From positions 62,001-126,000 of the forward strand of contig NZ_JACHYH010000008.1 of assembly GCF_014192715.1 (NCBI RefSeq): a stretch of 64,000 nt of DNA, read 5' to 3'. The notes under the pieces are model-generated. The model worked only from the letters and a program-made list of their open reading frames with translations, did not search any database and was not told the origin of the DNA. The translations under genes and the position numbers were made by a program. Source of the DNA: Luteibacter sp. Sphag1AF (lineage in GTDB: Bacteria; Pseudomonadota; Gammaproteobacteria; Xanthomonadales; Rhodanobacteraceae). Positions 61,697 to 64,000 of the stretch are shown in pieces (positions within the stretch are counted from its first letter, which is position 1; each line of letters starts with the position of its first letter).

Positions 61697-61781
61697 GCCC
61701 AGATGGCGGAATTGGTAGACGCACTACCTTGAGGTGGTAGCGACTTAGGTCGTGGGGGTTCGAGTCCCCCTTTGGGCACCA
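61697..61781 (+). tRNA. tRNA-Leu (anticodon GAG), integration site
   Basis: 85 nt including the encoded CCA. Acceptor GCCCAGA/TTTGGGC, D-loop with GGTAGACGC, anticodon stem CTACC/GGTAG with loop TTGAGGT (anticodon GAG, reads CUC), a long variable arm as expected for Leu, and T-arm GGGGG-TTCGAGT-CCCCC. An integrase gene follows within 180 bp. tRNA-Leu 3' ends are common attachment sites for P4-type integrases. Confidence 0.95.
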
Positions 61782-61798: not shown

Positions 61799-61944
61799 GT
61801 CCAAAGCAGTCCGAGATCGTAGATAACCCCGCGTAAATGCGGGGTTTTTTATGCCTGTATGTCTAGGTTTGTCTAAAGAGATCCAGAGACGTCCAGAGCC
61901 TTTGGGTACAATTTTGGGTATATTTCTTCTCGTGTGTACCCAAA
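61799..61944. promoter_or_regulatory. Repeats upstream of the integrase gene, candidate integrase/excisionase sites
   Basis: TTTGGGTA occurs at 61901-61908, 61913-61920, and inverted at 61937-61944; the outer two form TTTGGGTACA/TGTACCCAAA. The tRNA 3' end has the near copy TTTGGGCA (61771-61778). Imperfect GTCYARAG units are at 61799, 61871 and 61891. Such repeat sets around an attachment site are typical of arm-type binding sites. Confidence 0.5.
61825..61850 (+). terminator. Terminator after tRNA-Leu
   Basis: AACCCCGC-GTAAAT-GCGGGG followed by TTTTTT: an 8-bp stem and T-run. It ends the tpiA-secG-tRNA transcript ahead of the integrase gene. Confidence 0.85.
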
Positions 61945-61957
61945 TAGGTCTCAAGCC

Positions 61958-63244
61958 ATGCCGCGCCTTGCAGCTCCACTGACTGAGCTTCAGATTCGCA
62001 AAGCCAAGCCCAAGGATCAGGCGTACTTCCTGTCTGACGGCAATGGGCTTGTGCTGTGGATCAGTCCTGTTGGACTCAAATCCTGGCGGGTGCGTTATCG
62101 CCTTGCCGATGGTTCGCGTCCCGCTCCGGCAACCATCGGCCACTATCCCGAAATGTCTCTGGCCGAGGAGCGCATCAAAGCCGTCGAGGTGCAACGGAAT
62201 GCCAAGCAGGGCAAGTCCACGGCAGGTGTTCGCAAGGTTCGACAGGAGGCTGCTGTCGCTGATGGAGTTGAGCAAGAGACGATCGCGCAGGCGAAAGCCG
62301 AGATCGAACATGCATCCTTCCGCGCGGTATCTGGGCGTTGGATGGCCGAAAAGCGGCCTACTTGGGCTACTGAGACCTACCGAAAGGCTCGCCTAGTGGT
62401 GGACTCGTATCTGGTCCCTAAGTTGGGTGATCAGGATATGCGCAAGCTAGAGACAAAGGACGTTCGTCCGGTGCTCGTAGAGATGGCGAAGGACACCCCT
62501 CAACTGGCACGTAAGGCACGCCAGTATCTGGGGAGTATTGTTGACCACGCTATCAACGATGGACTTCGGTCAGATGAAAGTCGGCTCAGGCTTGACCGAA
62601 TCCTGCCGAAATATCGTAGTGGTCACATGCCAGCAGTTACGGACAATGACAGCAAGCTCGGGGAAGTCATGGAGGCCATTCATGCCTACCCTAATCGCGT
62701 TGTGCGCGCGGCATTAATCTTGGCCGCTTTGACGGCGATGCGTTCTGGTGTGGTGGCTAGTGCCCGATGGGAGGAGATTGACCTGGAGGCGGCGGAGTGG
62801 CGGATTCCGGGTATGAACCCTGATGGCACTAACCGCATGAAAACAGGTCAGGACTTCAGTACCTCGTTACCAGAGCAAGCACTCGTGGTTTTACGCGAGA
62901 TGTACGAGCGCCGCGTGGACGGTGAATACGTCTTTCCGCCCCAAGGTCGGCAACATTCTCCGCACCTTAGTCGGGATACCTTGAGTAAGGCGTTGCGTGA
63001 GATGGGCTTTCAAGGAGAGCACACAACCCATGGTTTTCGGGCGTCGTTGCGCACACTCGGTCGCGAACGCCTTGGCATTGATGTGGATGTTCTGGAGGCG
63101 CAGCTCGCCCATGCGCCAAAAGATGAAGTGGAAGCCGCTTACGCACGCGTGAAGTTTCGCGCGAAGCGACGCGAAGTCATGCAACAGTGGGCGGACTACT
63201 TAGATCAGCTTCGTGTGTGTGATGCGCTTCATTCGGTGAGGTAA
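61958..63244 (+). CDS. P4-type tyrosine recombinase (integrase)
   Basis: 428 aa from ATG 61958. Drives integration and excision at the tRNA-Leu. Domain order is the DUF4102-like N-terminal arm-binding domain (about 1-80, LTELQIRKAKPKDQAYFLSDGNGL), core-binding helices (120-220) and catalytic domain (230-400). Catalytic residues seen are Arg262 in TAMRSG, H358-x-x-R361 in HGFRASLRT, His385 in QLAHAP and nucleophile Tyr395 in AYARVKF. The usual Glu after the first Arg (TGxRxxEL) is replaced by Val. It should be active. Confidence 0.95.
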   Translation: MPRLAAPLTELQIRKAKPKDQAYFLSDGNGLVLWISPVGLKSWRVRYRLADGSRPAPATIGHYPEMSLAEERIKAVEVQRNAKQGKSTAGVRKVRQEAAVADGVEQETIAQAKAEIEHASFRAVSGRWMAEKRPTWATETYRKARLVVDSYLVPKLGDQDMRKLETKDVRPVLVEMAKDTPQLARKARQYLGSIVDHAINDGLRSDESRLRLDRILPKYRSGHMPAVTDNDSKLGEVMEAIHAYPNRVVRAALILAALTAMRSGVVASARWEEIDLEAAEWRIPGMNPDGTNRMKTGQDFSTSLPEQALVVLREMYERRVDGEYVFPPQGRQHSPHLSRDTLSKALREMGFQGEHTTHGFRASLRTLGRERLGIDVDVLEAQLAHAPKDEVEAAYARVKFRAKRREVMQQWADYLDQLRVCDALHSVR

Positions 63245-63623: not shown

Positions 63624-64000
63624 ATGGACGTTTTTTCGCTGCGAGAACAGCTGATCGGGGATTACAGTCGGTTCGCCCGCTCATTCACAACAATCCTGGC
63701 GGAAGATCTCCGTCGTGGTGTCGATGACGCCTATTCCAGCGGGCGTTATTGGCCAGATCCGTTGATCCAGATCAACCCTCGCTACAAGCAAGGACGCTCA
63801 ACTTCGGATCTTGCTACGGCTGCCGAACTCCACCCGCTTACGGCAACACTCTTTCCGATCGAATTGTATCGCCACCAGGAACAGGCCATTGCCTTCGGCT
63901 CCAAAGGCGAGAGTTTCGTCGTGACCACCGGCACTGGGTCCGGCAAGTCGCTTTGCTTCTTTTTGCCTATCGTCGACGCCGTGCTTCGTGCCAAGGAGCA
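63624..64000 (+). CDS. ATP-dependent DEAD/DEAH-type helicase, 3'-truncated by window end
   Basis: First 125 codons only. ATG 63624 is preceded by a purine-rich GGGGGGGCGG run. The Q-motif-like LYRHQEQAI (81-89) and Walker A TTGTGSGKSLCF (101-112) are intact, so this is an SF2 ATPase. The N-terminal 80 residues (WPDPLIQINPRYKQG, LATAAELHPLTATLF) resemble those I associate with the large COG1205/YprA-like helicases, including DruE of Druantia and DrmA/DrmB of DISARM. Which system it belongs to cannot be said from 125 residues. Being island cargo next to an integrase favours a defence role. Confidence 0.8.
   Translation, partial: MDVFSLREQLIGDYSRFARSFTTILAEDLRRGVDDAYSSGRYWPDPLIQINPRYKQGRSTSDLATAAELHPLTATLFPIELYRHQEQAIAFGSKGESFVVTTGTGSGKSLCFFLPIVDAVLRAKE

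Follow-up and report, generated by a model that had tools for sequence, protein, structure and literature searches.

An operon allied to ARMADA Type I in Luteibacter sp. Sphag1AF, with a degenerate Vsr domain in its helicase and a separate predicted HNH nuclease

Organization of the operon

We analysed a 64,000-nucleotide stretch of Luteibacter sp. Sphag1AF (the window, bases 62001-126000 of a 142,335-base contig whose sequence runs 16.3 kilobases (kb) further), at the right edge of which begins an operon headed by a gene for a YprA-family helicase. This gene is cut by the window edge only and runs to C8:130891 in the assembly. The operon was read on L002, which covers contig bases 123500-142335 (window position = L002 position + 61499). 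It contains, in this order (aa, amino acids):

63624 to 64000 of the window (5' end; full gene G000:C8:125624-130891 = L002:2125-7392), plus strand: YprA-family helicase, 1755 aa, single intact frame
L002:7404-10208: SNF2/BrxHII-like helicase, 934 aa from ATG
L002:10205-14566: PglX-like adenine methyltransferase of the Eco57I/N6 type, 1453 aa, GTG start
L002:14583-16589: SMC-like ATPase, 668 aa
L002:16589-17338: HNH endonuclease (HNH_2), 249 aa

The five genes are co-directional, adjacent ones either overlap or are separated by no more than 16 bases, and all five frames are intact. Within the window the helicase frame (ATG at 63624) gives the first 125 residues, in which LYRHQEQAI is followed by the Walker A motif GTGSGKS at residues 103-109. 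These residues alone match the helicase part of the DruE profiles with expectation (E) values down to 2.3e-14, so the frame is not a chance one and the helicase start that a preliminary description of the window had read from these motifs is real. The complete protein contains DEAD, Helicase_C and MZB (MrfA Zn-binding, the DUF1998 region, residues 1523-1622) domains, intact motifs (GTGSGKS at 103, DELH at 220, QRAGRAGRS at 1050, CVAGCYRC at 1614) and five CxxC motifs, as seen in a motif scan and with Pfam. Motifs are likewise intact in the SNF2 helicase (Walker A GIGKT, DEAH) and in the methyltransferase (the S-adenosylmethionine (SAM) motif DPACGSG at 501, NPPW at 769), and the HNH protein has ASH at 161 and NGLL at 180. 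The ATPase gave no Pfam match at 1e-3; we call it SMC-like because it matches LmuB and because its relatives are publicly annotated as 'chromosome segregation protein SMC'.

Looking at the PADLOC profiles, the helicase matched DruE (8.7e-89), the SNF2 protein DpdE (1.2e-195) and DrmD (1.7e-80), the methyltransferase DrmMI (3.6e-65), the ATPase LmuB (1e-14) and the last protein a model named HNH (2.2e-29). No single system of PADLOC-DB 2023 fits the operon, which these profiles label as pieces of Druantia, Dpd and DISARM. The preliminary description had proposed that a large superfamily 2 helicase of the DISARM, Druantia or Dpd kind heads a defence operon here, and had named a DUF1998 domain or a methyltransferase neighbour as support. 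The complete sequence bears this out, since the 1755-aa helicase carries the MZB domain, an N6-adenine methyltransferase lies two genes downstream, and the five genes form a putative operon of the ARMADA Type I-like kind. It had also considered a core-genome repair helicase or a metabolic surrounding; the gene was found in 0 of 22 other genomes of the genus (E 1e-50), and none of the next four genes belongs to metabolism.

Relation to ARMADA Type I and to other systems

As described in the main text of Bell et al. (2025 preprint, PMC12458937), ARMADA Type I generally consists of a YprA helicase, then a BrxHII-like helicase, then a PglX-like methyltransferase. The L002 operon begins with the same three genes in the same order, and an integrase and a tRNA adjoin it, as that text describes for ARMADA-bearing islands. 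Type II is described there as having the order SNF2-methyltransferase-YprA and a fourth GajB-like helicase gene fused to RelE. It has three proteins in common with L002, but neither its order nor its fourth gene was found; PADLOC and Pfam scans gave no GajB match behind the methyltransferase, where the SMC-like ATPase and HNH genes lie. In a phylogenetic tree, the L002 helicase and 30 Type I-like rows were separated from two ARMADA II helicases and one DruE by a branch with a Shimodaira-Hasegawa approximate likelihood ratio (SH-aLRT) value of 98; this tree was a quick one with three very long outgroup branches, and its root region is untrustworthy in detail. Similarity and gene order, and not the reference sequences of PMC12458937, decided which rows counted as Type I-like. 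The outgroups were L099 and L102 (Type II order) and L101 (Druantia III), whose identity was checked with PADLOC profiles: each of the Type II helicases has a GajB-like fourth gene next to it, and in L101 DruE3 adjoins DruH3.

Other known systems share single components with the operon. DISARM Class 1 has in common with it the SNF2 helicase (DrmD-like at 1.4e-91, below the curated cut-off) and the PglX-like methyltransferase (DrmMI-like at 3.6e-65); however, DISARM has separate DrmA and DrmB, whereas the MZB/DUF1998 region of L002 is fused within the 1755-aa helicase, and the Pfam hits of the operon proteins include no PLD-nuclease family (DISARM DrmC). Among PADLOC families the helicase is closest to DruE, but SNF2 and methyltransferase partners stand in place of those of Druantia, and the hits shown for the six scanned proteins include neither DruH nor another Druantia partner. 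DpdE is a profile that the SNF2 protein matches, yet no 7-deazaguanine insertion genes of Dpd were present in the scanned genes, which extend to the end of the contig. Neither the ATPase nor the HNH protein gave a PtuA or PtuB match (Septu) at E 1e-3 with PADLOC, and the LmuB match of the ATPase was accompanied by no LmuA (Lamassu) among the hits shown for the operon proteins.

The helicases of both ARMADA types end, according to the main text of PMC12458937, in a Vsr nuclease predicted to be active, which we took as a described trait and not as a clade definition. In contrast, the L002 helicase has no Vsr motif, and an SMC-like ATPase and an HNH protein are added to the operon. Judged by its sequences, the operon belongs with ARMADA Type I, and we file it as a variant allied to this type and not as a canonical member, because the D-F...DGxxH motif is absent while profile alignment links the domain to intact ones (see below). 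As to the other helicase features ascribed to Type I, namely an inserted BrxA-like domain, zinc-binding modules and an OB-CON-DUF1998 array, what was seen in L002 is the five CxxC motifs and the MZB domain.

Among the outgroups, L101:2199-15439 (Escherichia coli pRHB39-C18_2) holds Druantia III (DruH3, DruE3), and directly after it come an annotated helicase and the beginning of a gene for a DNA methyltransferase. This array lies on a plasmid typed as conjugative and recalls the Druantia-ARMADA array described for E. coli chromosomes.

A degenerate Vsr domain at the helicase C-terminus

We sorted the helicase tails that follow the cysteine cluster by motif, an intact Vsr requiring D-F or D-L and, at fixed distances after it, DG and H. 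The Vsr motif was intact in 22 of 49 helicases and not intact in 27, including L002, whose tail has no D-F...DGxxH motif. When the intact tails (20 rows) were aligned with the degenerate ones (25 rows) by hhalign, L021, L028, L074 and L077 being left out of the sets, the probability was 98.1 (E 8e-14 as a single comparison), with reversed controls at 0.0 to 4.0% and a ten-column gap over DGPHH. At the level of these profiles, the comparison shows that the degenerate tail is the same domain as the Vsr of other ARMADA helicases. The group of tails close to that of L002 aligned with the wider degenerate group over 108 columns (hhalign 97.7), and an AlphaFold2 model of the Lysobacter tail contains an alpha-beta-beta-beta-alpha-beta-alpha block (residues 241-320) with a predicted local distance difference test (pLDDT) score of 60-88.

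Two variants of this C-terminal region were seen among the relatives. The L039 and L081 helicases have lost the YprA-family cysteine cluster and kept the Vsr motif. The ARMADA-type helicase at L021:10621-17010 (genome G201, of the same bacterial family as the window) has an intact Vsr and an extra C-terminal alpha/beta-hydrolase domain (PF12697, 2e-7).

Distribution of the HNH nuclease and the Vsr motif

The catalytic domain of the HNH protein aligned to VcaM4I (6YEX) at 3.8e-23, its only significant match among solved structures. A section of PMC7897488 names H224, N241, D250 and D254 of VcaM4I, an EVE-HNH modification-dependent nuclease; the same H, N, D and D residues are present in the L002 protein and invariant in nine aligned relatives. 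VcaM4I has an EVE domain, whereas the L002 protein lies in an ARMADA operon and no EVE was recognised in its N-terminal part.

We then scored the loci of 48 tree helicases for this HNH gene: 23 were HNH-positive, 19 HNH-negative and six (L024, L025, L033, L038, L039 and L071) unscored owing to contig ends or an insertion sequence (IS) behind the methyltransferase. Among the 42 loci scored for both traits, all 23 HNH-positive ones were Vsr-degenerate, all 17 Vsr-intact ones were HNH-negative, and the remaining two (L074 and L077) were HNH-negative with a partly degenerate Vsr (Fisher's exact test 7e-10, a value that ignores descent). Nine of the 19 HNH-negative loci stand for whole genomes without such an HNH by profile search, and the other ten are plasmid loci scored on the fetched stretch only (for L072, just 2 kb behind the methyltransferase). 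A genome-wide HNH profile search of 26 genomes gave seven matches at 1e-10, of which five were full-length, all in degenerate-Vsr genomes; one of the five (G125) was flagged with a TGA, read as falling at the gene's end. The Vsr-intact genomes G437 and G657 had partial HNH-domain matches only, on other contigs. For three unscored rows the genomes (G486, G743 and G739) gave no HNH match, and a six-frame scan of 21 stretches revealed no HNH remnants.

Except for Hydrogenimonas (L043), the HNH-positive loci form one clade; whether L021, which is Vsr-intact and HNH-negative, lies within this clade or next to it varies with the tree. Over 23 loci HNH distances followed helicase distances (Spearman 0.49, a value that 0 of 999 permutations reached; 0.46 in 19 loci, 0 of 999, without near-copies).

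Two loci bear observations of their own. In L077 (Chlorohelix), an annotated EVE-domain protein lies behind the methyltransferase. In Kozakia baliensis (L071:24489-26781 and L082:14666-15439), an annotated IS21 follows the methyltransferase, and another plasmid of the same strain has an HNH homologue.

The SMC-like ATPase and the slot before the HNH gene

A full-length ATPase (over 500 aa) was present in 13 of the 23 HNH-positive loci and in six Vsr-intact loci, five of them HNH-negative and one (L033) unscored. It is split in two frames in L030 (HNH-positive) and shorter in L035. ATPase and helicase distances were compared over 19 loci, with a Spearman coefficient of 0.12 (176 of 999 permutations as high). 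In the 13 loci that have both proteins, the coefficients with helicase distances were 0.30 for the ATPase (60 of 999) and 0.52 for the HNH protein (0 of 999). The gap between methyltransferase and HNH genes is filled differently in other HNH-positive loci: by a Dsr1-like SIR2 (L013), an HEC-03B-like ATPase (L022), a PDC-M25A/B-like pair (L043), a UvrD-like protein (L068), small unknown proteins (L070) or nothing (L031, L042, L066 and L069). Modules in this slot in relatives are at:

L045:3524-7033: Dsr1-like SIR2
L051:3622-5505: PDC-M25A/B-like
L022:14168-15550: HEC-03B-like
L068:24958-27657: UvrD-like

Because HNH distances follow those of the helicase while ATPase distances do not, and because the contents of the slot vary, we read the HNH protein as a probable core component of this operon branch; with less certainty, the SMC-like ATPase looks like an exchangeable accessory.

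An SMC-like ATPase and HNH pair also occurs on plasmid pBEN of Paracoccus versutus (L080:15974-18728), with no helicase, SNF2 protein or methyltransferase of the ARMADA kind in the 16 kb upstream. A frame adjoining this pair resembles, by eye, an IS21-type transposase.

Interpretation and alternatives

We consider it likely, at a probability of about 0.7, that the L002 genes form an anti-phage operon that is mobile and tRNA-borne, belongs with ARMADA Type I and stands in a sub-branch where the effector nuclease has passed from the helicase to a subunit of its own. The combination of HNH and degenerate Vsr is thus read as a putative effector swap. In the corresponding mechanism, which the protein families and the published Type II mutants suggest, the methyltransferase would mark host DNA as self; the two helicases would engage or load on unmarked, replicating or single-stranded invader DNA; and the HNH protein, brought to the complex or to DNA by its N-terminal domain, would cut the invader DNA. 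The decayed Vsr domain may stay as a docking or structural piece. Anti-phage activity and DNA cleavage by the L002 operon are predictions. As reported in the main text of PMC12458937, protection by Type II was gone in most Walker-motif mutants and in the NPPW mutant, and was reduced but not abolished in the ArmD Walker B and ArmB SAM-motif mutants.

Several observations weigh against this reading. The published anti-phage tests, as given in that text, concern Type II and not Type I; activity of L002 is predicted. The eight tails closest to that of L002 align with the intact set over 35 columns near the end only (hhalign probability 90.3), the decayed-tail model is weak overall (mean pLDDT 53.9), and Foldseek gave no match to it at E 0.001. 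L074 (Streptomyces) and L077 have partly lost the Vsr motif and have no HNH, possibly through other nuclease replacements, and L071 (Kozakia) has a degenerate Vsr, an annotated IS21 right after its methyltransferase and no HNH within the stretch. Along the tree, HNH changes state two times and Vsr four times; in four independent pairs that differ in Vsr, HNH differs in two and is the same in two (p 0.5). Since nearly all HNH-positive loci fall in one clade, the pattern is clear-cut but historically represents one or two events, not 42. A functional link between HNH and Vsr is plausible and not statistically proven.

ATPase-nuclease pairs are common as defence modules, and the operon could be an ordinary ARMADA Type I core followed by an unrelated Septu- or Lamassu-like pair, the Vsr decay being a separate matter. 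We regard this as unlikely. The LmuB match (1e-14) and the P. versutus pair, which has none of the other operon genes in the 16 kb upstream, speak for it, and the ATPase and HNH distances are themselves weakly correlated (0.29, 13 loci, 26 of 999; 0.18, 139 of 999, without near-copies), which also counts against the main reading. However, the pairing is not obligate: 10 of the 23 HNH-positive loci have no full-length ATPase (L030, with its split gene, among them), six Vsr-intact loci have one, the HNH protein occurs together with a degenerate helicase in 23 of 23 cases, and neither protein matches PtuA or PtuB at E 1e-3. Less probable again is an HNH protein acting as an independent Type IV modification-dependent nuclease, like VcaM4I, that would cut phages with modified DNA and complement a methylation-based system; this would fit VcaM4I being the only significant solved-structure match of the nuclease domain, as well as a weak match (9e-6) to a phosphorothioate-dependent HNH profile. 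A DNA repair or recombination operon is very improbable. YprA itself (MrfA) is a repair helicase and the solved YprA matches at 8.6e-27, but the match of the helicase to DruE profiles, which belong to defence, is much stronger (8.7e-89) than that to DrmA (2.1e-14), and the proteins encoded with it resemble BrxHII/DrmD/DpdE and PglX. The operon is also sporadic (6 of 233 family genomes), lies behind an integrase and occurs on plasmids (64 records), and adjoining genes in several relatives match defence profiles.

An extension of the effector swap is tentative and, in our judgement, has rather less than an even chance of being right: the fused nuclease would have been retired into a scaffold and replaced by an HNH effector that docks via a new N-terminal domain, and the methyltransferase-HNH gap would serve as a permanent site for defence modules that can replace one another (SMC-like ATPase, Dsr1-like SIR2, HEC-03B-like, PDC-M25-like and UvrD-like helicase), making the operon a chassis with a swappable co-effector.

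ARMADA is already known; the arrangement with HNH and degenerate Vsr is what would be new. The preliminary description had called the system possibly undescribed, which fails for the family (ARMADA Type I, PMC12458937) and holds for this arrangement as far as the main text of that paper goes: HNH occurs there in a reference title only and SMC and Septu nowhere, the supplement, which may tabulate the arrangement, lying outside this scope. A literature search over titles and the starts of abstracts found no paper on an ARMADA or YprA operon with HNH. In a passage of a 2026 article (PMC12904381), ARMADA is still listed with the systems whose mechanism of DNA restriction is unknown. In this respect, a natural branch without the helicase nuclease motif and with a separate nuclease sets unwinding apart from cutting, and the identity of the cutter is therefore testable by single gene removals. 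The branch also suggests that a defence system built on helicases can exchange its effector and yet retain the helicase and modification parts.

Genomic context and relatives

The preliminary description had placed a tRNA-Leu and an integrase before the helicase, and both were recovered, the latter with Pfam matches to Arm-DNA-bind_3 (1.4e-15) and Phage_integrase (8.5e-15):

61697 to 61781 of the window, plus strand: tRNA-Leu (GAG), found by ARAGORN, probable attachment site of the island
61934 to 63244 of the window, plus strand: tyrosine integrase, 436 aa from the first start codon, alternative ATG at 61958; Pfam Arm-DNA-bind_3, Phage_int_M, Phage_integrase

The helicase gene starts 379 bases behind the integrase. 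The same tRNA-Leu(GAG) is present in all 11 same-genus loci read, ten of which have no match to the L002 integrase in about 1.5 kb behind the tRNA; in the remaining one (L093) 47 residues match weakly (E 3e-4). A search for the far attachment site found none. That the operon sits on an integrated tRNA-borne island is supported, not proven.

Six of 233 family genomes have the helicase at E 1e-50; at E 1e-150 it occurs in 9 of 369 genomes drawn from the class and in 14 of 398 from the phylum, the own genome being counted each time; 48 genomes of another class gave eight matches, all already found in the phylum search. Nine named relatives from genome contigs, including Lysobacter, Rhodanobacter, Achromobacter, Luteimonas and Pigmentiphaga, have helicases of 65-81% identity. 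Those of Achromobacter, Luteimonas and Pigmentiphaga are near-identical to each other (branch lengths under 0.005), as expected of recent transfer. Sixty-four plasmid records matched at 1e-60, of which 21 were fetched around the helicase; L081 was added through the ATPase search. L023 was kept out of the tree (helicase in two frames, contig ending inside the SNF2 gene), and the genome it comes from, G028, carries a full-length HNH on a different contig. Partial helicases (L014, L018), fragments (L008/L009) and shorter or second copies of loci read otherwise (L003, L004-L007, L020) were left out of the set, and matches in G440, G500, G474, G676, G894 and on a second contig of G739 lie outside the sample. 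The near-copies are L015/L016/L019 and L040/L065/L085, and some counts were repeated without four of them.

Downstream of the operon we found a 130-aa open reading frame with no family match in the three libraries scanned, IS3 transposase remnants (transpos_IS3, 7.5e-52) and the end of the contig, which resembles, by eye, the start of another IS3 copy.
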